A DNA stretch of 64,000 nucleotides from Spinacia oleracea (lineage: Eukaryota > Streptophyta > Magnoliopsida > Caryophyllales > Amaranthaceae): assembly GCF_020520425.1 (NCBI RefSeq), contig NC_079490.1:123710715-123774714 (forward strand), read 5' to 3'. The notes under the pieces were generated by a model, which ran no database searches, was not told where the DNA came from, and saw only the letters and a program-made list of their open reading frames with translations. Of this stretch, positions 13,269 to 42,360 are shown piece by piece. Position 1 is the first letter of the stretch. Every line of letters starts with the position of its first letter. A program made the translations under genes and the position numbers.

Positions 13269-13285
13269 TTTGCCCCTCAAGCAGG
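13269..13285 (-). promoter_or_regulatory. Polypurine tract of element A
   Basis: The minus strand reads CTGCTTGAGGGGCAAA directly before the LTR start TGATGTGG. Position and purine run fit plus-strand priming of a minus-strand element. Confidence 0.8.
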
Positions 13286-17265: not shown

Positions 17266-17279
17266 AACCTCCCCAAGCT
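17266..17279 (-). promoter_or_regulatory. Polypurine tract of Athila
   Basis: Minus strand AGCTTGGGGAGGTT ends at the LTR start TGATATGC, as expected for plus-strand priming. Confidence 0.85.
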
Positions 17280-20317: not shown

Positions 20318-20599
20318 TGATGAAAAATCTGAATTTTTTTGAGTTTTTGAGCTTTTTGGGTGAATTTGGGGATTTTGTGGGGATGAGAGAAAACTCAAAT
20401 CGGTTAGGTGTAGGTTGTAGAGGATGATGAGAGGATGATTTTGATGAAAAAATTGTTGAATTTGGTGGAGATTTGAGGGAGATATGGTGGTTGGAAGTTT
20501 TTGGAAGTTGGGGTTTAATGGAGGAGGTGAGAGAAAGTTAGGTTGAAGATGAAGAGGAAGTGAAGAAAGAAAGGGGAAACCGTGGTTTAATCGCTGAAA

Positions 20600-21055
20600 T
20601 CGCGTCTCGCCCGATCGGGCGACTTTCCGCCCGATCGGGCAGGATGCGATCCTTTTCTTTTCCTACGTGCGCGCCCGATCGGGCGCACCTCGCCCGATCC
20701 GGATCGGGCGTTTTGCGAATGCTCATTTTCATGACTTTTCCCTGCCCAAAATCATCCTTGACTTTTCCTCGAAATTTTCATCAACCGCCCGATCGGGCAA
20801 AATAATTTCGCCCGATCGGGCGTTCCACTCACCTTCTGCGCTCGATCGGGCAAACAATCGCCCGAATCGGGCGTTCCACTCGCCAGACCGGCCGATCGGG
20901 CAAAATAATTTCGCCCGATCGAGCATTCCACTCGCCAGACCGCCCGATCGGGCATGCTGCGCCCGATCGGGCAGAAATAAACTGCATGAAACTCATCCGT
21001 GCGCGCCCGATCGGGTGCACCTCGCCCGATTCGGATTGGGCGGTTTGCAGCGTGC
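20600..21055. repeat. Second palindrome cluster, between pol and ORF1-like gene
   Basis: At least seven perfect GCCCGATCGGGC palindromes plus variants (GCTCGATCGGGC, GCCCGAATCGGGC, GCCCGATCCGGATCGGGC) in 450 bp, interleaved with short repeated spacers AAAATAATTTC and GTTCCACTCGCCAGACC. No gene in the stretch 20320-21330. Confidence 0.9.
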
Positions 21056-21330
21056 TTGGCCTTGTGCGTAATTTCACTTTCTCGAACTTGGAGTTTTAGG
21101 CCTGCACATTATTAAACACCCAAATAGCGTAATGCCCTCTTCTCGCCTCACTAACACCAAAAACAATACTTAAACACACTTAGGTATGGGAAATACTAAC
21201 TAAACACACAAAAATAGAATAAAAAAAAAATCAAACTTATACTACTAAAGCGATAAAATACGGGTTGCCTCCCGCAAAGCGCTGGTTTATTTCTAGGTCC
21301 CGCTCTACCTTGTTACCTTGAATATGCAGT

Positions 21331-24300
21331 CTATGAGGCGGAGGGATTGAGGGGATGGACCTCAACCACTCCTACAGTAGCCCCATCATGGTACAACTTC
21401 AGACGTTGCCCGTTGACCGTGAATCGTTCACCATTCTCATTCTCTACTTCAACAGACCCAAACTTGCTTACCATAGTCACGGTGAACGGCCCAGACCACC
21501 TAGACTTAAGTTTTCCAGGAAATAACTTAAGCCTAGAGTTAAAAAGTAGAACCTTGTCGCCCACCGCGAACTCTCTATGCAAAATGTGATTGCCGTGCCA
21601 CTTCTTGGTCTTTTCCTTGTAAATCCGGGCACTATCATAGGCTTGTAGTCGGAATTCATCGAGCTCACCCAATTGAAGTAACCGCTTCTCACCGTCTAGC
21701 TTTGCATCCATGTTGAGCTGTTTGATTGCCCAATAAGCCTTGTACTCCATTTCTACTGGTAAGTGACACGCCTTGCCATACACCAATCGATACGGGGAGG
21801 TGCCAATAGGTGTCTTAAAGGCGGTTCTGTATGCCCATAGAGTATCATCTAGCTTATCGCTCCAATCTTTCCTAGACTTCGCCACCACTTTCTCAAGGAT
21901 AGATTTGATCTCTCGGTTGGAGACCTCGACTTGACCACTCGTCTGAGGATGGTAGGCTAGCCCAGTGCGGTGATAAACCCCATACTTGCGCAGGAGCGCA
22001 TCCAGATGCCTCTCATGGAAGTGTGACCCTCCATCACTGATCAAAGCGCGCGGAACCCCAAATTTAGGAAAAATGATCTTCTTGAACAGGGAGATGACTG
22101 TCTTAGCATCGTTAGTAGGTGAGGCAACGGCTTCCACCCACTTTGACACATAATCTACAGCAACAAGGATATACAAGTTACCCTTGGACGATGGGAATGG
22201 TCCCATGTAATCAATTCCCCACACATCAAAAATCTCAACCTCAAGGATCCCGTTCTGTGGCATCTCATACCTCCTCAAAATAGTCTCGGCCCTCTGGTAC
22301 GCATCACAAGCCATAATAAAAGCTTGTGCATCCTTGAACATAGTAGGCCAGTAAAAATCACATTGTGACAACTTAGCGTTTGTTTTAGACGGTCCATGGT
22401 GACCACCATAAGGTGAAGAATGACACCTACTGATAACACCTTGAACTTCCCATTGTGGAATACAACGCTTGTACAACCCTTCAGCAGTCTCACGAAACAA
22501 ATAAGGGTCGTCCCAAAAGTAAAACCGGACATCATGTAGGAATTTCTTCTTCTGTTGATATGAAAGATCGGCCGGAAGAATTCTCCCCACAATGTAGTTA
22601 GCAAAATCTGCAAACCATGGTGACTGACTGGCAAGTGCAAGTAAATGATCATCCGGAAATGAATCATCAATCGGTGTAGATCCCTTACCATCGTCATACC
22701 TCAATCTAGACAAGTGATCTGCAACCACATTCTCAGCCCCTTTCTTGTCGCGGATCTCTAGATCGAACTCCTGTAGCAGTAGTATCCATCGAATAAGCCT
22801 AGGCTTGGCTTCCTTCTTAGAGAGCAGATACTTGAGGGCCGCATGGTCAGTATAGACTATCACCTTGGATCCAATCAGATAGGTGCGGAATTTATCCAAG
22901 GCATAGACTATAGCTAGAAGCTCCTTCTCAGTAGTAGCATAATTAACTTGAGCTTCAGCTAAGGTCTTACTTGCATAATAGATGGCATGTAAAACCTTCT
23001 CCTTTCTCTGACCCAGAACTGCCCCAACTGCATAATCACTTGCATCACACATTATCTCAAACGGAAGATCCCATTCGGGAGAACGAATGATGGGAGCCGA
23101 AATTAGTGCCTGTTTAATCCTGTCAAAGGCTTCAAGACAAGCATCGGTAAACATAAACGGGGCATCCTTGAGGAGGAGCTGGGTAAGTGGTTTAACAATT
23201 TTAGAAAAATCCTTGATAAAGCGACGATAAAACCCCGCATGACCAAGAAAACTTCTAACACCCTTCACATTAACTGGAGGGGGTAATTGTTCAATCACTT
23301 GGACCTTAGCTCGATCCACCTGAATGCCCTTATCAGATATCAAATGTCCCAAAACCACCCCTTCAGTAACCATGAAATGACACTTTTCCCAGTTCAAGAC
23401 TAAATTGCACTCTTCACATCTCTTCAAAACTTTAGTCAGATTTAGCAAGCAAGAATCAAAAGAAGTACCATAGACGCTAAAATCATCCATAAACACTTCC
23501 ATGATAGACTCAATAAAATCAGAAAAGATACTCATCATGCAACGTCGGAAAGTAGCAGGTGCATTACACAGACCAAAAGGCATCCTACGATATGCAAAGG
23601 TACCATAGGGACAGGTGAAGGTGGTCTTTTCCTGGTCGTCTGGATGTATGGAATTTGAAAGAAACCAGAATAACCATCCAGATAACAGAAAAACTTGTGA
23701 CAGGCTAGCCTTTCTAACATTTGATCAATGAAGGGAAGGGGAAAATGGTCCTTTTTAGTAGCAAGATTAAGACGCCTATAATCAATGCACATGCGCCAAC
23801 CTGTGACTACCCTAGTTGGTATCAACTCATTTTTTTCATTTCTCACCACAGTTATCCCCCCTTTCTTAGGCACTACCTGAACAGGACTCACCCACTTAGA
23901 ATCAGACACAGCATACACAATACCCGCATCAAGCAATTTCATAACTTCATCTTTTACAACATCTTGCATGACAGGGTTCAAACGACGCTGGGGTTGGATG
24001 CATGGTTTATGATTTTCATCTAGATGTATCCTATGCATACAAAAGTCAGGGCTAATACCCTTTAAATCATCAATACTGTACCCAATGGCCTTTTTGTGCC
24101 TTTTCAACACAATAAGAAGTTGGGATAACTGGTCTGCATCAAGTGCAGTACTGACGATCACAGGGCAAAGTTGTTCATTATCTAAAAACGCATACTTAAG
24201 GTTAGCAGGAAGAGGCTTAAGTTCGGGTTTCTTTACCTCTTTAACAGAACAAGCCTGCCGAACTAACCTCTTCAATTTGGTGCTCTCCGGCTCAGATTCT

Positions 24301-25937
24301 CCACCATTAAGAGCCAACTCCAGAGCATCCACTTCAGCACTCCAAGAACTGCTATCACCTGCAGAAGACTCACAACAAAGCACTGCCTCCAAAGGGTCTC
24401 TTTCGAGAACTTGGGAGACGTTATCACGAGTAATAAAGTCAACTACATCTATGCGATAGCATTGTTCCTCCTCTAGCATGGGACATTTTAAGGCACTGTT
24501 TAGGTTAAAAGTCACCTTATCATCCCCAACAGACAATGTCAATTTCCCACTTTTAACATCAATTACCGCCCTCGCCGTGTGAAAGAAGGGTCTACCTAAG
24601 ATTATGGGAATTTGAGAATCCTCCTGCATGTCTAATACTACAAAGTCTACAGGTATATAGAATTTACCTACTCTAACAGGGACGTCCTCTAAAACACCTA
24701 AGGGGTATTTGACAGAACGGTCGGCCATTTGTAGAGTGATATTGGTAACTTTAAGCTCACCCATATTCAGTTTAGTACAGACAGACAAAGGCATGACAGA
24801 CACACTAGCACCTAGATCACATAAAGCTTTATCAATAAACATGGTGCCAATGTTACATGGGATGGAAAAACTCCCGGGGTCCTTAAGTTTAGGTGGAGAC
24901 TTGTTTTTCAAATAAGCACTACATTCCTCAGTGAAAGCTACAGTCTCTACCTCACAAAAAGCACGTTTCCTGGTCAAAATATCTTTCATGAATTTAGCAT
25001 AAGCAGGAACCTGTAAAATTAATTTAGTAAAAGGAACCGTTACCTGCAAATTTTTGACCACTTCCAAGAATCTGCCAAACTGCTTGTCTAGTTTATTCTT
25101 GAGTTGTCGGTTTGGGAAGGGGAGTGCAATAGGTGGTACTTGAATATCCGCCCCCTTCTTAACCTCAGTTGTAGCCTCATTCTCATCGCCTACCTTTTCA
25201 GCTTCCTTTTCACCCATAACTATCTTCGGGATTTCCTCACTGACCAGATCACTAGCAGACACCTCGGAATCAACCTCAACCGGCATAGAAGGACCATCAT
25301 AATCCCTACCACTCCTCAATGTAATTGCATTAGCAGTCTCCCTATTTTCGGGATGTGAAGGAAGTTGGCATGGTGGCCTCCCTGCAATAGTAGTAGCCAT
25401 CTGTGCCAACTGTGTATCAATGATCTTGTTGTGAGCAGTAAGAGCATCGATTTTTGCATCCTTTTCACTTAGGGATTTTTGCATTTGTAGCATCATGTTT
25501 CTCATCTCTACTAGCATAGGGTCAGGCTGTGTGGTTTGAGGCGGTGGTGGTGGAGGTGATGTGTGTTGTCTAGGGAACCCAGGTGGTCCACTAGACTGTT
25601 GGTTGTAGTTGTTCCGTGGTTGGTAGGGTTGGTATGGTTGTTGTGGTGGATGTTGGACTTGGTGAGGGTTCTGGATATTGTTGCTCCTGTGGGATAGTAG
25701 AGGGTTATTTTTGTAGCCCTCATTGTAAGAGTTGGAGAATGGGTTATTTTGTTTATAGGATTGAAATGCGTGACATTGTTCAACAGAGCTCCTACATTCC
25801 GGTGCATAATAACCAGACATTCCACAACTTTTACAAACAGTAGCAGGTTGGGCACTCATAGCAGCTACACTAGCAGGTTGGGCAGATTGAGTATTGGCTG
25901 CTTGCATATTATCAAACTTATAGTGTAAAGCAGTCAA
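21331..25937 (-). pseudogene. Athila Pol: protease, RT, RNase H, integrase (one frameshift)
   Basis: From the 5' side: the end of Gag with a zinc-knuckle-like CKSCGMSGYYAPEC (His replaced by Tyr), protease ALCDLGASVSVMP, RT blocks [25 protein letters not shown], and after a frameshift near 23650 [12 protein letters not shown] and [12 protein letters not shown] (DD catalytic pair). RNase H shows [30 protein letters not shown] and TDHAALKYL. Integrase has a zinc motif in which the last Cys is changed (CDAYQRA), and catalytic Asp in [10 protein letters not shown], Asp in ISDGGSHF and Glu in [13 protein letters not shown]. The two open pieces are 25937-23535 and 23583-21331. A single missing base explains the switch of frame. 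Confidence 0.92.
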
Positions 25938-26012
25938 TTGGGCAGTTAATTGTTCAATAGAATTTAAATCATGCTTACCACCCCTGTTAGATAGACCTCT
26001 AGGATTTCCATA

Positions 26013-26843
26013 CTAGGCATTGTGAATGGCTATCTCCTCAATCACCTCCATAGCTCTAGGCACCTCAAGTTGCATGAACCTCCCACTGGAAGCTGAATCC
26101 AACAAGCATCTAGACTCATTACCCAGACCATTATAAAACTGCTGAATCAAGAACCAATCTTCCAAACCATGGTGCGGGCATTCTCTTTGCAAATCCTTGA
26201 ATCTCTTCCAGACATCGAACAAACTCTCATCCGCTTGTTGTGAGATACCTAATATCTGACCCCTCAGACGAGCCGTTTTCTCAGGTGGAAAATATTTAAC
26301 ATAAAAAGCAAGAGCCAAGGATTCCCAATTATTGATTTTCAAAGCCGCCCGATTCAACCCATTAATCCACAGTTTAGCTTTCCCACTCAAAGAGAACAGG
26401 AAAAGTATCTCCATAGTCTGCTCCGGAGTCAATCCCTTTTTCTTAATGGTGGAGCAATATTGGATAAAGGACTTAATGTGAAGATTCGGATCTTCACCTG
26501 GTTCCCCACCGTACTGGCGTCTCTCGATCATGTTAATTAATGCAGGCTCAATCTTGGAGGTCTCAGCTGCAATAGAAGGCATGATCGCCTTTGGTAGCAC
26601 GGACAGACTTGGCTTAGAATAGTCTGTAAGCCGTGGGGTAGGTGGCGGTATCAGATTTTCGTCACCCATCTCTATCTCTGAAACTGAATCTGTATCTGAA
26701 GGAAAAAGATCGCCAATATTATGATCAGAATCAGAGTAATTCCCACACTGTGCAATGAAAGTTCTTCGTCTACGAAAGGTTCTTTCGGGCTCAGGATCGA
26801 ATGGAGTAAGATTACTAGTACCTACGGTCCTGGGCATAGACAA
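26013..26843 (-). pseudogene. Athila Gag (stop before pol)
   Basis: Retrotransposon Gag: LHIKSFIQYCSTIKKKGLTP, LFSLSGKAKLWINGL, FYVKYFPPEKTARLRG and ESLFDVWKRFKDLQRECPHH are the usual plant gypsy Gag blocks. The N-terminus is MSMPRTVGTSNLTPF. A TAG at 26013-26015 ends it, but the same frame reopens at once and continues into the pol frame (25937). This suggests one nonsense mutation or a read-through stop between Gag and Pol. Confidence 0.9.
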
Positions 26844-26949
26844 AGACTACAAAACAATGTGAGATCCGGTCTCAAGGAACGTGAGTTCCTTGAGTAGTAA
26901 CAAACAATAATCTAGGATAAGCAATCAACAACAGAAAATAAAACCGTTT

Positions 26950-26966
26950 CCCCGGCAACGGCGCCA
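26950..26966 (-). promoter_or_regulatory. Primer-binding site of Athila
   Basis: Minus strand TGGCGCCGTTGCCGGGG lies 5 nt inside the 5' LTR. This is the common Athila primer site, usually assigned to Asp-tRNA. It differs from the primer site of A and B after TGGCGCCGT. Confidence 0.9.
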
Positions 26967-26971
26967 AATTT

Positions 26972-28376
26972 TGACAGGCTAAAGTCGTATCACCTAATCA
27001 AAAATAACCTAAGGTCCACTAGCTAGGTAGCAAGGGAAGTCAGGATCGAATCCACAGCGAAACAGGCGTTCTTTCTACTATCAATTAATTAATCTAGACT
27101 ATTGTGAACAAAGTTGGTTGATGGTCTGTATACTAAGACTACGAACGAATATAAACAAGAATGAATCAATATATTAAGGAATCTAGGGTATAGGTTTGCC
27201 AACAAATAATAATCCAGGACATTGAACAATCACGATAATCAACAAAGTAATTAGTTAGACTAGCATGCTCTCTCAAGTCGATACTAATCATAGACTTAGA
27301 ATTAACGGGCTCTCGCTACGTATTAACTCTAATTCTACCTATTGACACAAGCCTAAACATCAAATTGCATCTCTCGAATCTTAATTTGATATTGCATAAC
27401 TACCACAACTAAACCTGCGCAAATCTAATCGCATAGTAAATGAAACCAATCAATAGGAATCAATTACAATGCCAACAATCATAATCATTCAATCATCCCT
27501 TCATATTATTCATGGATCCCCAACCCTAGAAATTAAACTACTCAAGCATGTTGACAATAAACAAAGCAATAATCATAATTGAAAGCATTATTAAAGCAAG
27601 ACAATGAATTGAAATAAGAAATAATACCTATTGAAGAACAAAGGAAAGTGAAAGCTTGAATTTTTATTGAGAATTAAACTAAGTGTTTTTGCATAAACTA
27701 GAGAGAAAATTAGGCTAAGGGGAATAATACTAAGCTTCAATACTAGAAAATAAAGTGTTCTCTAAAAACAATTAAGGCTTGCTTATATAGTTTGCCCAAA
27801 ATAAAGCCTAAAAAACGGAAACAAAACTCGCGCATAAGTGCTGGGGGTTGGCGTCGCCCGATCGGGCGTCGCTTCGCCCGATCGGGCGATCCACTCGATA
27901 GTCGGCCCGATCGGGCTAAAATCCGCCCGATCGGGCGGTTTGTGAACTCTCCACATAGCCTCCAGATTGACCGCCCGATCCGGATCGGGCGAGCTGCGCC
28001 CGATCGGGCGCGCGTTGATGAATCCAGATTGTTTATAATTCCGCCCGATGGTCGCATTTCGCCCTCAGCTTCCAGGGCGATTTGCAATCTTCAATCTAAC
28101 TCGCCCATATCACTGAGTCTAACTCCCGGGGCTCAACCATAAGCATCCAAGGCTCCCGAAAGTCGACGATGGAGGTCCCGAACTTCTCGGACTCATATAG
28201 TGGCCTAGATCAACAATGAAACGGGTCTAAAACGACCAATTTCTCATAATAAAACCTGAAACTCAAGGCACACTCAATAACACATATTAGTACTAGAAAC
28301 GGCTCCTAAGAGCACGGTTGACACATAAAAGTACTAAGGGACGGGGGTAAAAATACTATATAAAACATGCATATCA
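26972..28376 (-). repeat. 5' LTR of Athila
   Basis: 1405 bp, TGACAGGCT...CATATCA, pairs with 15860-17265. TATA-like sequence at about 27781-27790. A perfect 18-bp GCCCGATCCGGATCGGGC palindrome stands at about 27972, where the 3' LTR copy has a substitution. Confidence 0.95.
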
Positions 28377-28891
28377 AGAGGACGGCCAGATTGATCAACG
28401 TGGACGCGGATACAAAGATTAAGTCCGAAACGGACGCTTTGAAGAAGGCTGAGGAGGATGCCAAGAATTACGAAAAGAAATTGCTGGAGCATGAGGAGAG
28501 GCTGGCCGTGCTGAGAAAGGAGTATTCCTCCATCTCGGAGCGGGTGACCAATTTCTCGTCCAAGGTGAACGTCTTGGAGGGTCGGCTTAAGGCTATGCAG
28601 GGTGAGATTGAAGCCGTGCGCAGAGAGGCAGCGAGTTCTTTCAAATTAGGCGAAGAGTCCATTTTGGAGAATGCTCAAAGGGCGTGGGATCAGTCTATGG
28701 ATGGGAAGGACTTTTCTTGGTTTAAACGTCGCATCTCCTACCAGATGGCCGTCTCGACGGCTAGACACCTAGGCTTAGATCCCCCTGAGTTCGTTAGCGA
28801 CGGGGAGGAGGAGGACATGGAGGAGGAAGAAGTGAACTCCCCTGAAGGCCAAGACGTCCAGGACGGGAGTTCAACCGCCCCTCATCCTTGA

Positions 28892-29582
28892 GCAGCCTTT
28901 TGTGTAATTGGTTTGAATGACGCTGTGGGCGTTTGTAATAACTTTGATGCCTTTTGGCATTTATTTGTGTTGGTTTATTTGCGCCATGAGCGCATGTATA
29001 AACTTTTTGTGCCTTCGTGCACTTGTTTTATTTTGATTCCATTTCAGTTTGTTACTGATTTCTTAGGAATTCTTTATGGGTCCATTTGATGGACGGGAAC
29101 CTCAGTGTTTTAGGTGATCAGCCTAATTTGTGGCGCTAATCTAGGCCACTTCTCAGGTCGTCAATCTATTAGTCTTTTTAGACGCCTTCCAAGGAGGAGG
29201 CGTCATGTTGAATGTCTGCTCTTATTGAGTCTTTTTTCGGACGCCTTCCAAGGAGGAGGCGTCATGTTGGATATCTGCTCTTGTTGAGTCTTTTGTGTTT
29301 TATGTTAGCACAGGGTATTTTTAGGGTCTTCGTTTATTTAGTAAATATTGACGCCATCATTTGGATTTTGTTTTCTTGTGGGTTTCTCCACCCCTTAGTG
29401 TTTTTAAAGGGTTTAACTGAGACTTGTATTTGTCAGATCAGAAAACATTTATTTACTAAGTTGCAAGCTAAATTCACCGCGTCTTAGGCGGGCATTTACA
29501 GGCCGTTTTGAGGGCTCTAGTACAATAGTTAGGTCGTTTTGTAGGCTCTTGGTACAATAGTTAACCTAATGACATTCTATTT
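28892..29582. other. Convergent gap of element A with 59-bp direct repeats
   Basis: Lies between the 3' ends of the antisense gene (plus) and gag-protease (minus); no gene. GACGCCTTCCAAGGAGGAGG begins at 29181 and again at 29240, a tandem duplication of about 59 bp. Each unit folds as a hairpin with GACGCCT and AGGCGTC arms. This gap occupies the place where a full Tat element would have RT, RNase H and integrase. Confidence 0.7.
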
Positions 29583-32134
29583 TCAGCCACTTTCCTCAAT
29601 CTTGACCGTTTCTGTTTTGGCTGGTTTACTCTCCTTGACGGCTAGCAGTTCGTCTTCATGCTTTCTTTTGCCTCTGGCTTCGGCAGAATCTTGCTTCCAT
29701 GCTGACGGGTTGAGGGTCGTAAGGTAACAGTTCCTAGCCTGTTGTTGGTCTCCATGTATGGTGCCTATCGCCCCATCATTGCACACAAACTTCAAAAGCA
29801 TCAGATGGGTGACGACTACAGCTTTAATCTTGTTCAAGGTGGGTCGTCCCAAGATGACATTATATGTTGTTAAGTCCCTAACAATCAGGAAGTCCACCTC
29901 CATCTTCCGTCCATTTTTCCTATCCCCAATTCGAACCGGCAGAGTGATGACGCCCACAGGGTGTATAATGCTCCCTCTGAAACCAATGATGGGATAGTGA
30001 ATACTTTCCATGGTTTTGGGCTCATGTGCTAGGCGATTGAGGCATTCCAAGCTCATTATGTCGGACGAGCTTCCCGTGTCTATTAGAATGCGTTTTACTC
30101 TCATGTTGGATATCTTGAATTCGACCACAAGAGGATCATCATGCGGAGTGGCTATTCGTCCACCACCCGACTCACATATCTCTATCCGTGGGAATGGATC
30201 CAGAGGTGACTTTGCTGACAGCATTACTTGCCCCAGGCGGCGAGCATAATCTTTCTGTCCCCTCATGGTGGGTCCTCCAGCGGCTGGTCCTCCAGATATG
30301 ACGGCTACAAACCCCCCTTTGTTGTGTTGTCCCTCCGTAGGTGAGGCAGGTGACTTTTTCTTTTTGTATTGGTTTTTTCCAAAGCCGTGAGCATTCTTCT
30401 GTAAGTAGTTTTTGAGGTGTCCTTTGGAGGCTAGGCCGTCTAGAGCCCTTTTCAAGCTTCTACAGTTCTTAGTTTCATGTCCTATGTCTTCATGGAACTG
30501 ACAATATAACTTGGGATCTCGACTCTCAGCAGGAGATTTCATGGGGAAAGGCCGTTCAAGGTCAAACCTGGTTCCGACGTCTTTCAGCATTGTGAGGAGG
30601 TCTGTGTTATACTCAAAATATTCCCGTTCCTGTGGACATTCTCTCTTGTGCCCAGGAGAGTTGGTATCATGCTCTTTTGAGAGGGCCCATGTGCCATTTA
30701 CTCGTGGGGCTTTTCGGTCCATTTTATCTTTCATTCTTGAGGAGTCTATTGTTTCTCCAATCCTTCCCTCATTTGACGCGCTGCATATTTCTGTTGCATG
30801 GATAAATGCTTCGGCCTCGTCCAAGACTTCGGCCATAGTCCTCACGCTTTTCTTGACCAGGTCAAACTTAAAGGATCCCTTCTTCAATCTTCTGATAAAA
30901 TTATCAAAAGAGACGCCATCGGGCAAGTCTGGGATCTGTCCGGCCTCTAAGTTGAAACGCTTCACATAGCTTCTTAGTTATTCATCTTTCCCTTGTTGAA
31001 TCCGTCCCAAATGCATGCTTGTTTTCCTTTCTTCCTTGTGTTCCATGAACCTTGTGGAGAACAGAGTTTGTAGTTCGTTGAAAGAGGCGATTGACCCTGG
31101 GGGCAGTCGTTCAAACCACTTAGACGCCACTCCTTTGAGAGTGGCCGGGAAATATTTGCACCAGGTGCCTTCGTTGGTTCCTTGAACATACATGTGATGG
31201 CGGTATGCGACTAAGTGCATATCAGGATCGATGGTCCCGTCATAGGCTTCAATGGTAGGAGTTTTTACCTTGGGTTCTTTCGGGGCGTTCATGATCTCCT
31301 CGGAGAAGGGGGTACTCATGTGCCTTAGCGTCAGATTATTAAACCCTTGCTGGATGTGGTAAGTTGGTTCACGGCGGTTGGATAGCAGGCGGAGGCGCAT
31401 GCTTACGCTGTTGGGCGTCATCTGAGTCTGTCCTCGAGTAGAGGGGTAAAATGGAGGATCTTCCATCACAGGGGTGGACCCAGTGTCCGATAGTTCAGAT
31501 TCAGCTTCATAATGTTCTTGACGCCTTGAGGTGGGTCGGAAGACGGCTGGTGGGCTTCCCTAGACGGTGGTCGTATGACCTGGTCCCTTCGAGGTAAGGA
31601 AGTAGGGGGGTCGCGGCCGATACCCGAGCGCTCAGGCACAGGGCTGACTCCCCGTCTAGCTTGTGGACGAGAGCCTTCTCCAGCCCTCCATACATTGGAT
31701 CTAAGTGGCATTCTGCTTATCCGATTGACGCCTAGGCTGAGGGGTCTCTGTGGAGTCGTCCTCTCGGTGCTGTAGATTAGCAAATTTTTCCGAATTTCAT
31801 CTTGCAATGTGGTGCTCATCTGTTGTCGAAAGGTTTGATTCATTTGCTGTTTGAATCCTGCTAAGATCTCGCGTAATGAACCCACCGAGACCGGCAAGTC
31901 TAAATTCTCATCTAGCAAGGCATCTCGGACGCTGGGGCTTAGATGGCCGCCTGGCGGAGACGCTTCTACCATTGGCTCTTCTTCTACGACCACCTCAGCT
32001 ACTTGCACTCGACGTGGTGTGCTTCCTGCATTTGCGATTCGATTGGCTTCTTCCATGTGTCGTTGGCTCCTTTCGAGAGGCCGCCTCTCTTCTCCCTCAC
32101 CACCATACTCTCTGTCAGAGTGTAGTTCGGCCAT
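29583..32134 (-). pseudogene. Element A Gag-protease (broken), no RT/IN
   Basis: Starts at MAELHSDREYGGEGEERR (ATG 32134), close to the primer site. After a frameshift around 31490-31540 it continues at 31469 with the Gag core TWCKYFPATLKGVASKWFER and LFSTRFMEHKEERKTS. A TAA at 30978-30980 interrupts the frame, which reopens at 30965 and runs to a zinc-like motif CQFHEDIGHETKNC and the protease ILIDTGSSSDIM with IGFRGSI and VILGRPTLN. It then ends in a Lys/Glu-rich tail at 29583. In family relatives a large Pol follows; here none does. One frameshift and one nonsense codon make even this part nonfunctional. Confidence 0.88.
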
Positions 32135-32145
32135 GATACTATACC

Positions 32146-32163
32146 TCCCCACAGACGGCGCCA
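32146..32163 (-). promoter_or_regulatory. Primer-binding site of element A
   Basis: Minus strand TGGCGCCGTCTGTGGGGA, identical over 18 nt to the primer site of element B (48678-48695). It is separated from the LTR by two bases. Confidence 0.88.
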
Positions 32164-32165
32164 AA

Positions 32166-32660
32166 TGTTGTGGGATCTTTTACGGTGATGACGTGTCACG
32201 CGTTCCTCGGAGGTATCAAGTATGACCTGGCACGAACTTCTGGCAACCTGCAAAACAAGAATATTCCCGTAGGAATATTCCCTCCGGTGCTTAAGTAAGT
32301 AAATGCTAGAGAGAGAAGTAATTTGTAGAGAGAGGGCAGAGCAAAGATAGTTCTAGGTTGGTGGGAATGAATTGATTATCCCGTTTACCTGGGGATCTGC
32401 ACTATTTATAGTGCTAGGGTTTCTTGGGAGCTGGTCCTGCATTGATTGGATGGTTTCTTAAGATCAGGGCACGTGTCCTGCGTAAATAGTGGGGGCTTGA
32501 TTTGAGCTTGGTGGGCTATTTAAGTGTTTGGGCTTCTTGAAATCAACGGAAATGGGTCCCTTCTGAGTAGGAGGGTCTCAAGACCTTCTGGAGGGCCTTT
32601 TAGGCTTTCTTAATGGGCCTTCATGGTTCAACCTAGGTGGCATTTATTTTAGGCCACATC

Positions 32661-32661
<1 letters not shown>
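32166..32661 (-). repeat. 5' LTR of element A
   Basis: 496 bp, TGTTGTGG...CACATCA. The TATA box is within the palindrome ACTATTTATAGT (32401-32412), so transcription towards gag on the minus strand would start shortly to its left. Confidence 0.95.
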
Positions 32662-32712
<51 letters not shown>

Positions 32713-32713
32713 A
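32662..32713. repeat. ATT/TAA microsatellite, 3' side of non-LTR copy 1
   Basis: Continuation of the microsatellite interrupted by element A (TTTAT duplication). On the minus strand it is (AAT)n and follows the 3' end of copy 1 of the non-LTR element. Confidence 0.95.
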
Positions 32714-32739
32714 ATCAAATGCTAACAAAGTCAAATATT

Positions 32740-35700
32740 TTACAAATAGTTAGTGGGAAGCCGAGATACAATCTGGGCCCCCACCCCTCTAGCTATAGCA
32801 AAACCTATACTGATGAAAATATGAGGAGCAGCACGAGCTTCAATGTCCTGTGTCCTAGAATACTTCTGAATCCGCTTCAGCAACGCAACCGCATCCTTAT
32901 CCAGCTGCCCCAAAGAAGAGAAAGAGAACGGAAGAAAGCCATAACCAATGGCCCTGCAACGTGCTTCGTACTTGACCCGCTTCCGAACAGTCGCATCTGT
33001 CACAACCCGGCCCGGAGCAAAGCCAGACAACCCAGATTGTATCAAAGGAGACGATCCCGTCAAGTCAACACACACATCACAGCCCCGATCCCAACAGTAG
33101 AGCAACACGTCTGCTGGTCGGAGAGCTACATCGTTCACTCCAGATAGACCAGTATCAACCTCTTTCTGCGCCGAGATCCCAAACCGATAACAAACATCAA
33201 CAAGTGTATCCCGAACCACATTATGTCGATGTTTAATACCCACGGTGCCAGCACATGACACCGCATGATCACGAAAGATGTCTCCCGCAAAGACCCTGGA
33301 ACAAGCAGAACATGGCGCCGTAACAGAGAACAAAGGAACCCCCAACCGGTAACACAACACACATCGGTAAGCTTTAGCATTCATCGTATGTCCCAAACCT
33401 GATATGGGGACCGCACGAAGCAAAGCAGAGGTGTGATCTCCCTGCTGTGATTTCCACAACGCCGACTGTCGAGAAGATAAAGAGAAGGTGGATTCTACAG
33501 ATGCAGTAACCTTTGTGAAATATATTTCTGCCAATTTCTTCATGAGTTTAGGGGCAGCGACCTCACTAGGGTTACTCAGAATGTTATACTCCACCGTTCT
33601 ACTAAATAGACTCAACGCATCCTCAAATACTCGACCAGGACCAACAATACCAGAATGCCGTAGAAGCTTTGTCTGCAAACCAAAAGACTGCAATCGAGAA
33701 GCAAGAAAAGCATAATGACGAACATCACCTGCGGAATAAACACCAAGTCCGCCAAAAGAAAAGGTAAGGTGGCAAGACGCCACTACCAATCACCAAAGCC
33801 AGGCCCCGAAGCAGTTACAATACGCTCAAAGGAAGATCAAAGAGCCTCATCAAAAGTGAGTTGAGCCGCCTCAAAAATACCAGGAGGACAAGTACGCAAA
33901 GCAAAGTAGAGTTTAGAAACTTCGGTACATGCCCTAAGTAACAACAGCTCACACTGAGGATCATCAAGCTGAGCAACCTTATCCATAAGCCCAATGGTCT
34001 TGGTCACCCTCTGCATCACAAGCTCACCACTAAAAGCTGGATTGGAACTAGCGGGACCACCTAGCAACTTAACACCATGCAAAGGACGAGCAATATCAGG
34101 GGGAAAGACTCCCACAAGCCTGCTTCGAGGGTCCTCAGTAGGCCAGAAAACCTCGGTCTTCTCCCCGTTAAAATGTAACCCGAGACAAGGCCCGTCCTCC
34201 ATAATCAACTGCAGAATCTTCCCAACCACCAAGGTGTCACCAAGAATAGTGCCATCATCCAAATACCATGCCTGAAAACATACATCAAAAGCGTCCCTGA
34301 TTGTACAAACCAGGGGTTGTAAAACCAAAGCAAAGAGCAGAGGACCAAGGGGATCACCCTGCTGCACCCCTTGAGACGACCATAACGTGTGCTCTCCATA
34401 ATGCAATCTGGCTGGTGTAGAGTAGCAGAATTCAACCCACCGCGAAATGCCCGGAAAACGAAGGTGAACTTCTCGTAACATGGCCGCACGATCAACTAAA
34501 TTAAAGGCATTCTGAAAATCCACCAATAACATCAAAAGACCCACATCAGAACCCCGGTCCTCAATCAACCGGTTCATAGCATGAAGAATTGCTTCACCAC
34601 CCGCAGAAACCCCGACACCAAATTGAAGACTATCAAAATAACTTCCCAAAGACGGACCAACGATAATAGCACCAACCTTCGAAACCAAACGTCGCCAAAC
34701 AGTACCCACAGCAATAGGACAAATACCACCACCGGGCTTGACAAGAGGGGTGAGGGGAGCACTAGCAACATACTCACCCAAACCCATAGGGCATTTCCCA
34801 GCTAAAAAGAGATTAACCACCCCAGAAATCGAGTCAACTAACTCATTTGAAACAGCCACCGCAGCACCACACAAACAATCCATAAGGTGCTGAGCTCGCA
34901 AACCGTCCCTCCCACAAGATGTGCCACGTGGAAAACTCCTAATCCGGTCCAAAACAACAGCAGAAGTAGCCATGAGATGGTGATCAACATGAATATCAGG
35001 CAAGGACGGAGCTGGAGAAGAAGGGTGTTTGGACTATAAATCCGCAAGAGTGGCCTCATTATAAGGTGCAACACCAGAAGAGGAAAGAACACGAACTGCA
35101 GCAGTGTAAGGACCATCATAAATCTTCCTACGACACTGCTTGATATTACGCTCTGCCAAATCAAGATCCTCATCAACATCCATCAAAGCAGGGGATCCAG
35201 CTGCCAAAGCTTCCCGCAAAAGCAACATACTACCACCCGACTCACTCCAAGTACGAATAGCATTACCAATACTCTCTTCCTGCCGTTGTCGCCTGACGGA
35301 AGAAGAACACTCGCGATTACTCCTCGGACTAAAGTTCCTAAGCATACACAGAAGCAACACGAGGAGACTAACCCAACAAGAGATGTCCTCAGGCTTGCAA
35401 ATCACCTTATCAAGCGCGCCTTTCAATACCCGGGAAAAACCCAAACGACATTTTGGAGGGATGGATTTCACGGTGCAAAGACGTGTAGAAAGCAATCTGT
35501 CAAGAAGAGTGATGGTAAAACCACAATCAAAATGTTGCATCGTAGTATCCACATGACTAGGTACATCGGAATTGAGTTGCGGTTTAGAAAGACCATAGAG
35601 CACAAACCGAACAACACCATCCCCATTATCAGGCGGGGCCACAAAATTAGAACCAGCACCATGACGACATTTAGAACGAATAGCATGCGTATTAAAACAA

Positions 35701-35930
35701 TCCCCGCAAAGCCAAATCCCCATACAACGGAAGGTCAACTCAGCCTCAGTGAAAATAGCTAAGTCAGTAATAAGAGAGTGTCGTGTTACTGCTTTTGCGG
35801 CATCATCACTACAATGACGATCACGAAGATGAGTGATCAAAGAGCTCCTAGTAAGCCCATTTCCCCCGCCATCTTGACACCCATTAAGACCCACAAATGG
35901 GTAATGAAAACGCACCACATCAGTAGGCAT
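32740..35930 (-). pseudogene. Non-LTR copy 1 ORF: zinc finger, RT, CCHC, RLE
   Basis: Would bind target DNA, nick it and reverse-transcribe the element RNA onto the nick. Order: start MPTDVVRFHYPFVGLNGC with HLRDRH (C2H2-like finger), a second Cys/His cluster CGDCFNTHAIRSKCRH, RT with LVDFQNAFNLV, QGVQQGDPLGPLLFALVL and FQAWYLDDGTILGD, then CSACSRVF...DHAVSC, RHNVVRD, RPADVLLYCWDRG, CVDLTG and KRVKYEARC. The last set fits a restriction-like endonuclease: PAD, a later Asp, and K-x2-KY. Stops at about 35034, 33837 and 33805 and a frameshift near 33790 disable it. About 1,060 residues if undamaged, similar to R2-type ORFs. Confidence 0.78.
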
Positions 35931-37029
35931 TAGAAATAACAACACCTATAAACGAGAGACTCCCAAAAAAAACAATATTCAATCACAACCGAACAACTCC
36001 AAACGCAGCAACACCAAACAACAAAATCCAATATCAAAGTAACTTGCTGTAACAACACCAAAAAAACACCAAACATCACATAAAGCAACTTACTTTTAGC
36101 TTTGAGATACCCCACGATGATATGGCAGCAACAGAAGCTAAGTTATTTGGTACATGCAACGTCACCGCAAAGAAACCACCTCAACCACAACCAATTCACC
36201 GGAAATAACAACAACGTAAACAACACACCGGAAACCACCTCAAGCAACACCGGAAACAACAACAACACACCGCAAACAACCTCAACCAATTCGCAACCAA
36301 CACACCGCAACCAATTTGCAAACAACACACCGCAACGAATTCGCAATTTCACACCCAACAATAAACTTCTCTCGCCAGAAATGGACAACCCCTGCTACCG
36401 CATGAGGACCTAAACCTTCGCACGAACCCCCTGTGATACGCCTGAGGAACGTACTTGAAACAGACTGGAATTGCCGAAAAAGAGACCTAAAACAAACCCC
36501 TTGGATACGCCGAGAAACTGCACCCAAAACTTGTCGTTAACCACCAAAAACTGCACCAATAACCTTCGTGGGACCGCCGATAAACTGCCGCTGAACCGCC
36601 GAGAAACTATCGTTGAACCACCCCCTGTATTTCGCACATATATCGCACAAAAAAACGCACAACAACCGCCTGATGATCGCACAAAAACAGCCCAAAACTA
36701 CGCCAATACCACCACGCCGGAATACCTGTTGCCGTCGCCTGAAGATACCCGCCTGAACCCCCTGGATTTCTCACATACACCGCACCTGAAATGGACCCAG
36801 AACAGCACCAAAAACGCCTGAAAATCGTACCAAAACTGCACCAATGCCGCCTGAAAATCGTACCCAAACTTCCCTAAATAACCGCCGGGAATTGCCTGAA
36901 CCTTGCACCGCAGATGGTGGTCCTTCGCCGAGCCCACAGCCACCGGAAAACCGCTGAAAAAGGGACGTGGAACACCCTAAACGCCCATACGAATAAACCT
37001 AATCGCCCTTTGAGAAAAAACGTTGCACG
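35931..37029 (-). other. 5' leader of non-LTR copy 1
   Basis: No protein recognised. The stretch 36184-36360 repeats CACACCGCAACCAATT-like units, and 36400-36960 is rich in CCGCCTGAA and AAACTGCACC words. Weak open frames on both strands reflect this composition. Confidence 0.5.
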
Positions 37030-37095
<66 letters not shown>

Positions 37096-37232
37096 GTTAT
37101 TATTATTATTAATAATATTATTATTGTTATTATTTTAGTTTTTAGTTTTCATTATTTATTTCTAATTGTATTTCTATTTCTATTTATTTATTTTAGTTAT
37201 TTTTATTTTTATTATTATTATTATTATTACGG
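37030..37232. repeat. ATT microsatellite between copies 1 and 2
   Basis: (ATT)n from 37030 to about 37133, then decayed T/A-rich sequence, then ATT units again at about 37211-37232. It borders the 5' end of copy 1 and the 3' end of copy 2. Confidence 0.9.
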
Positions 37233-37281
37233 GAAAACACCAAAACGTTACAAGCTTAACAAGCTACAAAGATCAAGGGAA

Positions 37282-40200
37282 CTACAAGAAGTTGGAGGGG
37301 AGTCGAGATACAATCTGGGCCCCCACTCCTCTAGCTATGGCGAACCCGATCCTGCTGAAAATGTGGGCAGCTGCCCGTGCCCCAATGCCCTGAGCCCTGG
37401 AGTACGTCTGGACCCGCTTCAGCAAAGAAACAGCCCCTTTCTCTAATTCCCCAAAAGAAGAGAAGGAAAAAGGTAAGAAACCGTAACCCAAAGCCCTACA
37501 ACGTGCCGCATACTTATCCTGCTTCCGCTGCGCTGCAACCGCCACAACCCGACCCGGAACGAAGCCTGACAACCCAAATTGCGTCATAGGGGAAGACCCA
37601 GTCAAGTCAACACACACATCTAGTCCGCCATCCCATGAGTAAAGCAATATATCTGCAGGACGAAGAGCTCCATCACTCTCACTAGTCAGCCCAACATCAA
37701 CCTCCTTGCGAGCAGAAATCCCCGACCGATAGCAAATATCCAAAAGGGTATCACGAACAACATTATGACGATGTTTGATACCCACAATCCCAGCACAAGA
37801 CACGGCATGATCCCCATAAATGTCCCCGTCGGAAACCCGAGAGCAAGCAGAACACGGCGTCGAATCAGAGAACAACGGAATACCCAACCGATAGCAAAGA
37901 ACCGAACGATAAGTCTTACCGTTCATAGTCTGGCCTAACCCCGAGATGGGGACTGCCGGCAACCAAGCTGAGGAGTGATCCCCCTGCTGTGATTTCCATA
38001 GGGCAACAAGACGCGAAGATAAGGAGTAGGCGGATTCCGCATCAGCAGTAACCTTCGTGAAATATATGTCTGCCAATTTCTTCATGGGTGTGGGGGCAGC
38101 GATCTCACTAGGGCTACGCATAAGGTCGGTCTCCACGGTTCTATTGAAAAGACCAAGAGCATCATCAAAGGCCGGTCCCGGACCATCAACACCTGAAAGC
38201 CGAAGAAGCGAATCCTGCAAACCAGAAGACTGCAAACGGGATGCAAGAAAAGCATAATGCCGAACATCACCAGCTGAATAAACACCCCAATCCTCCAAAA
38301 GAATAAGGCAAGGTGGCAAGGCGCCATTGCCAGTCACCGAACCCAGGTCCCGAAGCAGTCACGATGCGCTCTAAAGAAGCCCGCAGAGCCACATCAAAAG
38401 ATAATTGGGCCGCTTCGAACAGATGAGGCGGACAAGTGCGCATAGCAAAGTAGAGTTTAGAAACTCCAGTACACGCACGAAGAAGCAACAACTCACACTG
38501 GGGATCATTAAGCTTGGCTACAGCATCCATCAACACAACAGTCTTCGACACACGCTGCGAAGCCAACTCCTTACAAAAAGAGGAATCCGTACTGGCTGGG
38601 CCACCAAGCAACTTAACACCAAGCGCAGGACGAGCAATATCCGTAGGAAAGACACCCTCTAGACGACTGCGAGGGTCCTCCGAAGACCAGAAAACCTCCG
38701 TCTTCTCAACATTAACATGGAGACCTAAACGAGGACCCTCCTCCAAAATCAACTCCAAGACCTGTCCAACCACCAAAGTGTCACCAACGATAGTGCCATC
38801 GTCCAAGTACCAAGCCTGAAGAGATAGATCAAATGAGTCTCTAATTCGACACACCAATGGATGTAGAACCAGAGAAAAAAGCAAAGGGCTGAGAGGATCT
38901 CCTTGCTGCACACCCTGACAAGACCACAAGGTATGCTCCCCATAATACAGCCGCGCTGGAGAAGAGTAGCAGAATTCAACCCAACGCGAAAAAGCAGGAC
39001 AATGGAGCCGAACCTCACGCAACAAAGCCGATCGATGAACTAAATTGAAAGCATTCTGAAAATCCACCAATAACATAGATAGGCCAACATCGGCCCCACG
39101 AGCCTCAACCAACCGATTGACAGCATGGAGAATGGCCTCACCACCTTCTGGAACCCCAACTCCAAACTGAAGACCTCCAAAGTAGTTTCCTAAACGCGGA
39201 CCAATCAAAGCAGCCCCGACCTTAGAAACAAGGCGCCTCCAAATAGTGCCCACAACAATAGGCCGAATACCCCCACCAGGCTTAACCAGTGGCGTAAGAG
39301 GAGCACTAGCAATGTATCCTCCAAGCTCAGCAGGACACTTTCCAGCAAGAAAGAGATTAACTACCTGAGTGATAGCATCCACCAACTCATCAGAAACAGC
39401 TACAGCAGCACCACCCAAGCAATCCAAAAGGTGTTGAGCACGCAAGCTATCTCTACCGCACGAAGTACCACGCGGAAATCCCATAATCTGCTCCAAAACA
39501 ACAGCAGAGGAAGCAGTAAGGTGATGATCAACAGGGATATCGGGTAAGGTAGGGACCGGAACAGAAGGGTGCTTTTCTTGCAAATCTGCAAGAGTAGCAT
39601 CATCGTAAGGGGCAAGACCTGAGGAAGAAACAACCCTAACGGCAGCAGTGTAGTGACCGTCATAAATCTTTCTCTTGCATTGCTTAATATTACGCTCCGC
39701 CAAATCATGGTCTTCGTCAACATCCAATAGACGGGGAGACACGCTAGCCAATGTGTCTATGACAAGTTGCTCAGAACCACCTGGAACACCCCAAGAACGA
39801 ATAGCAGAGGTGATACACTCTTCCTGTTGTCGCCGCCTAACACCAGAGGAACACTCACGATTACTTCGTGGAGAAAAAGTCTTGAGGACACAAAGAGGTA
39901 ACACGAGCAACTGAACCCAACAAGCGATGTCATCTGGTCTGCAAATCACCTTATCAAGCGCCCCTTTGAGAACTCGCGAAAAACCCAAACGACATTTGGG
40001 AGGGATGGATTTCACAGAACGCAACCGCTTAGACCATAAAGTGTTTAGAAGAGCAACATCAAAAGAAAAATGATGTTCTCGAGGCGCATCAGAAGTAGAA
40101 AGCTCGGAAGCAGGAGCTTGTGGTTATGGAATACCGTAGAGAGTAAAACGAATAGTACCATCCCCAGAATCAGGTGGATCCACAAAAACCGTACTAGAAC

Positions 40201-40474
40201 CACTGCCATGCCGACACCTAATACGATGAGTATGCGTCTTGAAACAATCTCCACATAGCCAAATTCCCATACGACGAAAGGTCACCTCAGCCGTAGTAAA
40301 AACCTGCAAATTGGTAGTAAGGGAATGACGGGTTACATCCCGCACACCAGTGCAACAATGACGATCCCGTAAGTGAGTGATCAGGGAACTCCTCACCAGA
40401 CCACGCCCACCTCCATCCTGGCACCCGCTAAGACCCACAAAAGGGCAATGAAACTTCTCCACGGAAGCCGCCAT
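37282..40474 (-). pseudogene. Non-LTR copy 2 ORF: zinc finger, RT, CCHC, RLE
   Basis: Start MAASVEKFHCPFVGLSGC at 40474, matching the copy 1 start. Cys/His fingers at the N-terminus (HLRDRHC, then CGDCFKTHTHRIRCRH). RT motif A LLVDFQNAFNLV near residue 471, LWSCQGVQQGDPLSPLLF, and YLDD near residue 556. The C-terminal part has CSACSRV...GDHAVSC, KHRHNVVRDTLLDICYR, RPADILLYSWDGGLDVCVDLTG and RKQDKYAARC. A TAA at 40124-40126 replaces a residue aligned with Lys of copy 1, and one extra base near 38290 shifts the frame between 40024-38267 and 38337-37282. Otherwise open over about 3.19 kb. Confidence 0.8.
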
Positions 40475-41280
40475 ACTACACAAAACCTCTGCCACTTCAA
40501 AACCACAATAAGACAACACCAACAACGCTGCACCAAACTGCACACCACAACAAACAATCACGCTGCAAACTGCACCACTTTCGCCAGAATAACCACGCTG
40601 CAAACTGCACCAAAATAGTGATTCGATCCCCACAACACCACGAAGCTACAACACTACAATGCTGATTCGAACCCACCAGAATAATCCAAATACCAAGCAC
40701 GAATACAACATACACAAACGCCGCACGAAAAACCAAACAGAACAACCAAACAGAACGCCTGAACTGAACTCACGAATGAACTGAACTCACGAACAACCAA
40801 ACAGAATGCCTCAACTGAACTCTCGAAAAACCAAAAAGAATACCTGAACAATGCACCAAAGTGAACTTACGAACTGCCGGAGCCCAGAATAGAAACTGAA
40901 ACGTAACTCGCGCAAAGAAACTGACGCCCTGAATCTGACGCCCTGAATACCAGACACCGTCGACCAGAAACTCACCAAAAGCATTCGCAACCCCGCCAGA
41001 ACACACCCTAAACGCCGCCTGCAAACACCAAACTCCGCCGGAACAACTAACACCAAACCAACGAGCCTAGAAACACGCCCTCCACGCGAACCTGACGAAC
41101 CTGGAAACTGCCCTCCCCGCGAACCTGACGAACCTGGAAACTGCACCACCGTCGCCGCCTAACACTGAACCGTCGTCGCCTAACCCCGGACCGCCGACGC
41201 TGACGCCGGAGCCCACCGGAATTAAGATGAAGTAACGCTAACCGCACATCGTGCCCTAATCGCCAAACTTGAGAGAGTTT
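40475..41280 (-). other. 5' leader of non-LTR copy 2
   Basis: About 0.8 kb without recognised coding. It holds repeated ACGAACCTGG, CCGGAAC and CCAAACAGAA words, including direct repeats of CCGCGAACCTGACGAACCTGG at about 41085-41140. Confidence 0.5.
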
Positions 41281-41291
41281 ATTGTTATTGA

Positions 41292-41367
<76 letters not shown>
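41281..41367. repeat. ATT microsatellite between copies 2 and 3
   Basis: Near-perfect (ATT)n of about 75 bp preceded by ATTGTTATTGA. It is bordered on the left by the 5' end of copy 2 and on the right by the 3' end of copy 3. Confidence 0.95.
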
Positions 41368-41368
<1 letters not shown>

Positions 41369-42221
41369 AGAAGCGATTACACAAAGTTGGATGGGAGCCT
41401 AGCCACTAATTGGGCTCTGATACCCTTATTCAAAGCAAAACACAAACGATGAAAAAGAAAAGAACGAATGTTAGCAGCAGCCATGTTACTCTAAGCAACC
41501 CGTGAGACCCTAGACATGAACTCGAGGGCATCACTCCCTAGTTCTCCAAAGGTGGAGAAAGCAAAAGCGATAAAACCATATCCGTTGCCTATGCACTTCG
41601 CTTCATACTTCTTCTTCTTCTTCCTGGCAACAGCATTAGCGACAGCAACCCCAAGAGCAAAAGCATCAACTCCTGGCCCGGTAAATGGAGAGATACCTGT
41701 GACATCTAAGCATACATTCTTCCCTTTGTCCCAAGAGTAGACGAGAAGGTCTGCAGGACGGAGATCTCTCCCTTCCTCAGACAGAAATCCCAAAGGCACC
41801 TCCTTCTGCACAACAACTCCAGCCTGTGAACAGATATCCCCTAACACATCTCGAACCAAGTTATGGCGGAATTTCAGGCCAACATCATTACCACAATGCA
41901 CAGCGTGATCCCCGAAACGATCTATGATTTTCGAAGAGCAGCAAGGACAAGTAAAGTCAGGGGGAACGTAGGAATCGCAAGGCGATAACACAGAACACAC
42001 CTGAATTGTCTTGGGTGCATCGTCTTCCCTAACCCCTCAATAGGGAGGGCTCTCAAGAAGTCTAAGGAGTGCGCCGCTCGGTTGCTAATGAGTATAGCCT
42101 TTTCTCTGGAACTCGGGTTATGCTGTCCCATCATCTTCTTCTCTACCATATCAAAGTACACTGTAGCCAACTTTTTCATAAACGGGAGGGCTGGTACCAC
42201 ACGGCAGAAATCGAGAGGTGG
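41368..42221 (-). mobile_element. RLE-type non-LTR element, copy 3 (5'-truncated, divergent)
   Basis: Only the C-terminal part of the ORF remains, with microsatellite directly at both ends. 5' truncation is typical for target-primed insertion. Its protein differs clearly from copies 1 and 2, so it represents another subfamily. Confidence 0.75.
41377..42200 (-). pseudogene. Non-LTR copy 3 ORF, C-terminal zinc motif and RLE
   Basis: Starts inside the region aligned with PMKKLADIYF of copy 2 (here ALPFMKKLATVYFDMV), then LPIEGLGKTMHPRQFRCVLC. After a frameshift near 41970 comes CPCCSS...GDHAVHC, FRHNLVRDVLG, RPADLLVYSWDKG, CLDVTG, a run of five lysines followed by YEAKC, and SFSTFGEL-like FAFSTFGELG. 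A TAG at about 41491 interrupts the frame, which continues through FCFALNKGIRAQLVARLPSN-like residues to a TAA at 41377-41379. Only about 9 nt then separate the stop from the (AAT)n tail. All proposed catalytic residues are retained despite divergence from the other copies. Confidence 0.75.
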
Positions 42222-42308
42222 ATATTATTATTGTTATTATTGTTATTATTATTATTATTATTATTGTTATTATTGTTATTATTATTATTCTTATTACTAT
42301 TATTATTG

Positions 42309-42360
<52 letters not shown>
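42222..42360. repeat. ATT microsatellite, 5' side of copy 3
   Basis: (ATT)n with scattered G and C interruptions, longest of the microsatellites. It marks the right border of the non-LTR series. Confidence 0.95.

Follow-up and report, generated by a model that had tools for sequence, protein, structure and literature searches.

What kind of mobile element occupies the repeats at 32.7-42.4 kb of a 64-kb stretch of the spinach (Spinacia oleracea) genome (contig NC_079490.1; the whole analyzed stretch is hereafter the window), and why are its copies bordered by TAA repeats? The window holds three copies (A, B, and C) and a remnant (D) of a non-long terminal repeat (non-LTR) retrotransposon with a single open reading frame (ORF), arranged head to tail on the minus strand with TAA spacers between them. 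We consider it very probable (about 0.9) that they form an array of spinach R2-type elements, i.e., elements predicted to encode a restriction-like endonuclease (RLE), which insert into (TAA)n microsatellites. The original prediction had placed at least three copies plus a fragment at 32714-42221; this interval instead contains two near full-length copies (A and B) and one truncated copy (C), and the remnant D lies outside it.

Domain architecture of the encoded protein

The core motifs listed in the original prediction are all present on the minus strand: LVDFQNAF, GVQQGDP, and YLDD of the reverse transcriptase (RT), a CCHC motif, RPAD followed by VDLT (A and B) or LDVT (C), and K-x2-KY (Table 1). 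Across 12 aligned relatives, the RT and C-terminal motifs (C..GDHA..C, RH[ND], KE, RPAD, D-x-T, and K-x2-K) are largely invariant or near so. The N-terminal Cys/His fingers that had been proposed were also found, except that Tyr replaces the first Cys of motif 1 in copy A; rows of the 12-relative alignment that lack these N-terminal motifs are truncated or divergent in that part. Searches of Pfam returned RVT_1 and nothing else notable. An apurinic/apyrimidinic (AP) endonuclease, of which no motif had been seen in the original prediction, gave no Pfam match at E-values up to 1 in six full-length relatives and five window ORFs.

The proposed restriction-like endonuclease is supported by motif, profile, and fold. 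The C-terminal ORF of B (334 residues) yielded a structure model with a mean predicted local distance difference test score (pLDDT) of 85.6, for which the top seven Foldseek matches in the PDB were R2 chains (E 1.3e-5 to 3.8e-3, six of them below 0.001). Viral cap-snatching nucleases ranked below these, with MunI and HincII lower still, and the predicted fold is that of an RLE, as had been anticipated. In a profile search, a second segment of R2Tg aligned weakly (0.9 bits) and colinearly, pairing CCHC, RHN, PD, and D in order. Judging from these motifs and models, the family carries an RT, then a CCHC motif, then a PD-(D/E)XK-like endonuclease in one ORF, which is the organization of the RLE-type (R2) group. 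By its fold, profile, and motif matches, the family has the R2 architecture.

TAA tracts at genomic copies

A search of the spinach genome with the spinach protein P0002 gave 2826 first-look candidates, 44 of which were scored; all 44 are B-type copies, with the match covering 1031 or more of the 1035 residues and an identity of 96-100%. For 30 copies, 1.5 kb was taken on each side, and the other 14 were scored at the 3′ end, where a tract required four or more units of TAA or TTA no farther than 90 nucleotides (nt) from the stop motif. Such a tract is present in 41 of the 44 copies (28/30 and 13/14) and reads TAA on the sense strand in 39 of these 41. Upstream of the ORF, 29/30 copies have a tract, every one of which reads TAA on the sense strand. 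In 20 of these 29, no more than 70 nt separate the tract from the conserved GATTAGG of the 5′ end (the others have shorter or variant 5′ ends), and GGCGATTAGGG, near the 5′ end of B, is common to other genomic copies. A-type copies have a 3′ tract at 10 of 12 loci, including the window copy and one locus reading TTA, and C-type copies at 3/3. Hence, most scored copies lie in TAA repeats, as the original prediction had supposed.

As background, five tracts were counted in 20 arbitrary 1.5-kb stretches (30,020 bases; tracts in 3 of the 20), and two in 26.1 kb of outer 3′ flank. At the background density, the binomial probability of 28/30 is approximately 5e-48, with independence assumed. A contrast is provided by 12 L1-like copies, chosen from 150 scored for a long open frame around zf-RVT, which we take to be a marker of plant L1: their 3′ stretches contain a TAA tract in 1 case and a poly(A) run of nine or more in 11. 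Insertion of the spinach family is target-specific, a property that is common but not universal in the RLE-type group.

Alternatively, the TAA repeats could be the element’s own 3′ tail and not its target, with arrays and 5′ tracts arising only where copies land in the tails of earlier ones. TAA-repeat tails are described for I elements (PMC3747384), and the 3′ end of another copy stands upstream of the 5′ tract in 7 of the 29 copies. Moreover, runs of at least 10 A between TAA tracts (L013, L021, L065, and L076), or between the 3′ untranslated region (UTR) and the tract (L006), suggest that RNAs carry some UAA repeats themselves. Nonetheless, in 18 of the 30 copies, each side bears a tract and the flank beyond it contains no element sequence (within ~0.5-0.9 kb upstream and 1.1-1.3 kb downstream). 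Because a tail by itself would leave the 5′ end without a tract, these solitary copies led us to reject a tail-only origin of the repeats, which we regard as improbable. The 3′ junctions also vary, falling after CGTT, CGTTTT, AGCTT, GGT, or TTTTCCC.

Organization and origin of the array

Read 5′ to 3′ on the minus strand, the interval at 32.7-42.4 kb runs (TAA)n, C (5′-truncated), (TAA)n, B, (TAA)n, A, and (TAA)n. In both A (~4.3 kb) and B (~4.1 kb), a long 5′ UTR precedes a single broken ORF, and the 3′ UTR (~30-50 nt) runs into TAA repeats. None of the window copies has an intact ORF, with stops and a frameshift in each of A, B, and C. TRF identified five period-3 arrays in the window, all of them ATT/TAA and all five adjoining or separating element copies, in agreement with the earlier description of the junctions as microsatellite; one more perfect TAA tract, of only four units, is located at 15716. 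D is a member of the A-B-C array, split off by an LTR retrotransposon that landed in the TAA spacer. The LTRs of this nested element are 96.8% alike, and it is bounded by a perfect target site duplication (TTTAT at 12768-12772 and 32662-32666).

P0002 aligns over ~1030 residues with 73% identity to A and 96% to B, far above chance, and shares ~47% protein identity with C. A and B are 74% identical in DNA, blastn aligning only the ORF and 3′ end, and there is a likeness of ~17 nt near the very 5′ end. On these identities, A, B, and C are three subfamilies. Tandem (segmental) duplication of one insertion would account for their shared orientation, the TAA spacers, and the A-B spacing of 4.54 kb, but not for three subfamilies that each have closer relatives elsewhere in the genome, and we consider it very unlikely as the origin of the array.

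Affinity to R2 and L1

In a single-sequence search of the PDB, the top five places went to R2 sequences (7.7e-6 to 0.001), followed by L1 (0.002). In the profile search, R2Tg came first (1.4e-9), followed by two more R2 sequences and then human L1 (2.5e-7). Seven R2 chains aligned with a model of the full-length relative P0007 at E-values of 2.8e-12 to 5.3e-10, compared with 1.1e-4 for the best L1. These full-length R2 alignments span 919-1112 columns, with low TM-scores (0.25-0.32) and 13-14% identity.

The 41 rows of an RT tree comprised the family, its metagenome and sponge relatives, R2, and L1; 17 of its 38 inner branches are open, and its bootstrap had not settled. A branch with 100/100 support separates the family and these relatives from R2 and L1 combined, which places the family outside L1 in this comparison of RT sequences. 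The seven sponge-search rows (four Ephydatia and three unnamed) are set apart by a single branch (100/100), which is not so for the named angiosperm rows. The earlier expectation that the RT does not fall inside L1 thus held in the tree, the single-sequence search, and the fold search; the profile search is mixed, and the tree does not place the family nearer to R2 than to L1, because R2Bm groups with L1.

An ordinary plant L1 or RTE whose C-terminus merely resembles an RLE, which could be suspected since the LINEs of flowering plants are described as nearly all L1 plus some RTE (PMC3747384) and the RT profile also matches human L1 (2.5e-7 versus 1.4e-9 for R2Tg), above Bombyx R2, is extremely unlikely given the lack of an AP endonuclease match in Pfam, the RLE fold, and 3′ ends in TAA and not poly(A), unlike 11 of the 12 L1-like copies.

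Several points weigh against R2-type elements that insert into (TAA)n. Among the B-type copies, the 3′ end of L001 is rearranged beside (AAC)n, L030 is cut before the stop codon beside a 12-nt tract, and the L069 stretch missed the stop codon and was counted as a miss. In L012 and L014, the copy borders on the TTA strand. No 5′ tract occurs within 1.5 kb of L029, whose 5′ UTR runs into LTR-like sequence, and the A-type copies L037 and L042 have no 3′ tract. The flank survey comprises the best-scoring copies only (44 of 2826 candidates), so that old or truncated copies are under-sampled, and we infer that a TAA tract was present at each site before insertion. Regarding the protein, two Bombyx R2 sequences (4.6e-6 and 4.8e-5) rank below L1 in the profile search, the RT of the full-length P0007 model is modeled poorly (mean pLDDT 63.7), and in the tree, R2Bm pairs with a long-branched L1 (84/44) and the family is not joined to R2. 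Nuclease activity, the nicked strand, and DNA binding are predictions.

Comparison with described elements

R2 elements (Bombyx mori, zebra finch, and turtle) share with the spinach family the order of N-terminal finger(s), RT, CCHC, and RLE, and they are its best PDB match by fold and single sequence. They differ in that R2 targets 28S ribosomal DNA, whereas the spinach copies are flanked by TAA tracts and not by the R2-clade site. R4-clade elements, including Dong, also combine an RT and an RLE in one ORF, and they target TAA repeats in an ostracod, most insects, molluscs, and cnidarians; their N-termini are described as a diverged Myb-like domain without zinc-finger motifs (PMC7998251). Unlike these animal elements, the spinach family resides in a flowering plant and carries N-terminal Cys/His motifs. 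No Myb/SANT domain was matched by Pfam at E-values up to 1 in the spinach family, with no profile-profile search made. The label “Dong-like” fits as an analogy through the shared TAA target, the two having been compared by description. Utopia, which targets U2, and Togen, which targets (TG)n, are likewise RLE elements aimed at repeated sequence (PMC4640811), although their targets differ and the hosts named are not plants; here, too, the likeness is by description. Plant L1 differs from the spinach family, which has neither the N-terminal AP endonuclease nor the poly(A) 3′ end typical of L1. RTE has an AP endonuclease and a (TTG)n-type 3′ end, in place of which the spinach family has no AP endonuclease match and TAA ends.

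A survey of spinach with MGEScan-nonLTR reports 642 full-length “CRE” long interspersed nuclear elements (LINEs), the commonest LINE class, plus 22 “R2” (PMC6337768). Our own arithmetic on its Table 1 gives the “CRE” LINEs a mean length of 4.6 kb, and they are probably the spinach TAA family, although the relevant parts of that survey offer no RLE, target, or phylogenetic analysis. A second spinach survey reports LINEs without giving their type (PMC7840529). A Metrosideros repeat table lists 72 bases of Dong-R4 and 424 bases of R2 (PMC13084152), which we take as chance labels. Among the titles and abstract openings of the best-ranked open-licence PMC papers (subscription papers and Repbase being outside this scope), none described a flowering-plant LINE with an RLE or a plant LINE that targets TAA.

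Signs of recent movement

Among 28 B-type copies (of the 30, L020 and L026 were dropped for a 3-nt offset), divergence has a median of 1.8% and a minimum of 0.13%. The ratio of nonsynonymous to synonymous substitution rates (dN/dS) is 0.265 over 231 pairs from 22 copies without stops, and 37 of the 44 scored copies are free of stops over the region matched. Low divergence and purifying selection, in a sample picked for high score, indicate that elements encoding a functional protein moved recently. The family looks abundant in spinach.

Relatives in other organisms

Lists of relatives were the best 120 of 502, 1177, and 1904 matches, in which an absence of monocots or other animals carries no meaning. 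The matches listed include 14 named eudicot hosts: Spinacia oleracea, Silene latifolia, Tanacetum coccineum, T. cinerariifolium, Helianthus annuus, H. anomalus, Tagetes erecta, Taraxacum kok-saghyz, Mikania micrantha, Smallanthus sonchifolius, Apium graveolens, Trifolium repens, Papaver somniferum, and Ranunculus cassubicifolius. One named animal host, the sponge Ephydatia muelleri, is also listed, and full-length proteins occur among the relatives (e.g., P0007, P0009, P0046, and P0110). None of the listed proteins is named R4, Dong, NeSL, HERO, or CRE, and no copies were found in IMG/VR or prokaryote contigs. Instead, the labels read “reverse transcriptase domain-containing,” “uncharacterized,” “hypothetical,” or even “exostosin”; the sunflower proteins P0130, P0137, and P0140 are labeled “reverse transcriptase domain, exostosin,” apparently an annotation error. 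The predicted proteins P0149 and P0170 of the freshwater sponge E. muelleri arrange RT, CCHC, and RLE as the spinach family does, and repeated RT and RLE units are joined within a single gene model.

Other features of the window

Coordinates are collected in Table 1. The 25 nt joined to the 5′ side of D may have been left by a template jump or by an older copy that was very short. No remaining part of D was found to the left of the LTR-like sequence that cuts it. That sequence is one of two copies (2551-3932 and 11251-12610; 85% alike) that contain AATATTTCCGATTCCG-type tandem repeats and have Copia-like ORFs between them. LTR-like sequence of the nested retrotransposon (12768-32666) is also present upstream of genomic copy L013. 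The 5′ UTRs of A (36000-37000) and B (40500-41250) contain many short tandem repeats and, unlike the ORFs, do not align with each other in blastn. An Rfam search of 35900-42400 for RNA families or ribozymes gave two matches far below the gathering score, both over TAA tracts and judged to be chance. Elsewhere in the genome, a single TTA tract at L012 (C2:24052537-24058632) lies between a B-type copy and a C-type copy in inverted orientation, so that the two face each other, with the B copy against the usual strand orientation.

Table 1. Positions of the retrotransposon copies, their predicted protein motifs, and adjoining repeats in the window
Feature	Position	Strand	Basis or remarks
Element A, near full-length, second subfamily	32712..37029	minus	ORF 32743-35930 with stops and frameshift
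Element B, near full-length, putative RLE non-LTR retrotransposon	37230..41291	minus	5′ UTR ~0.8 kb, one broken ORF, 3′ UTR ~50 nt; 96% amino acid identity to spinach P0002
ORF of B	37285..40474	minus	ATG at 40474; premature stop, one frameshift
N-terminal Cys/His motif 1 of B, C-x7-C ... H-x4-H	40358..40450	minus	By eye in 6/12 aligned relatives
N-terminal Cys/His motif 2 of B, C-x2-C ... C-x-H	40208..40261	minus	By eye in 9/12 aligned relatives
RT core of B, LLVDFQNAF to WYLDDGT	38792..39073	minus	Pfam RVT_1
CCHC motif of B, C-x2-C-x11-H-x3-C	37795..37854	minus	Alignment and profile
Predicted RLE core of B: RHN, RPAD...VDLT, K-x2-KY	37510..37776	minus	Motif, profile, fold
Element C, 5′-truncated, third subfamily	41368..42222	minus	Linker, CCHC, predicted RLE with LDVT
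Remnant D, RT fragment like copy A	12611..12681	minus	Cut at 12610 by LTR-like sequence
25 nt resembling 3′ UTR of A, joined to 5′ side of D	12682..12706	minus	
(TAA)n, 5′ side of C	42223..42360	minus	TRF
(TAA)n between C and B	41279..41367	minus	TRF
(TAA)n, imperfect, between B and A	37030..37229	minus	TRF
(TAA)n, 3′ side of A	32663..32711	minus	TRF
(TAA)n, 5′ side of D, other half of A-D spacer	12705..12766	minus	TRF
Nested LTR retrotransposon inside (TAA)n spacer between A and D	12773..32661	not assigned	LTRs 12773-13271 and 32166-32661

Proposed mechanism

For an R2-type element inserting into (TAA)n, the N-terminal motifs and the RLE would together give the protein its preference for the microsatellite, and the RLE would nick the TTA strand. 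The 3′ OH at the nick could then prime reverse transcription near the 3′ end of the RNA, i.e., target-primed reverse transcription as in R2, and an RNA ending in UAA repeats may pair with the nicked target strand and so aid priming. As the junctions vary, the RT would need no one fixed last base. RNAs that read into the TAA repeats of the donor site may be polyadenylated and then copied into a new TAA tract, which fits the internal A runs. With TAA on both sides, an inserted copy would itself remain a target, so that later copies would land beside earlier ones and build head-to-tail arrays.

A broader proposal, which we offer tentatively and think somewhat unlikely as a whole, is that the family is an unnamed, recently active flowering-plant branch of an ancient RLE lineage that spans kingdoms (its members elsewhere include sponge and unassigned sequences) and in which (TAA)n targeting was kept or re-evolved. 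Targeting would then be partly RNA-guided, with UAA-repeat transcript ends pairing with the nicked microsatellite, so that the template carries its own address.

Implications

A microsatellite-specific RLE family in an angiosperm had been expected to be unusual, and a 2013 review describes the LINEs of flowering plants as nearly all of the L1 clade, several species also having RTE (PMC3747384). The spinach family breaks this picture, and related proteins appear under 13 other named eudicots among the matches listed. Because database entries among these matches carry generic or wrong labels, the lineage may be overlooked elsewhere. The family would make a safe-harbor strategy, here insertion into microsatellites, testable in a plant and would provide a plant counterpart of R2 for studies of target-primed reverse transcription. 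It may also be a source of a plant-native enzyme for inserting DNA at repeats.

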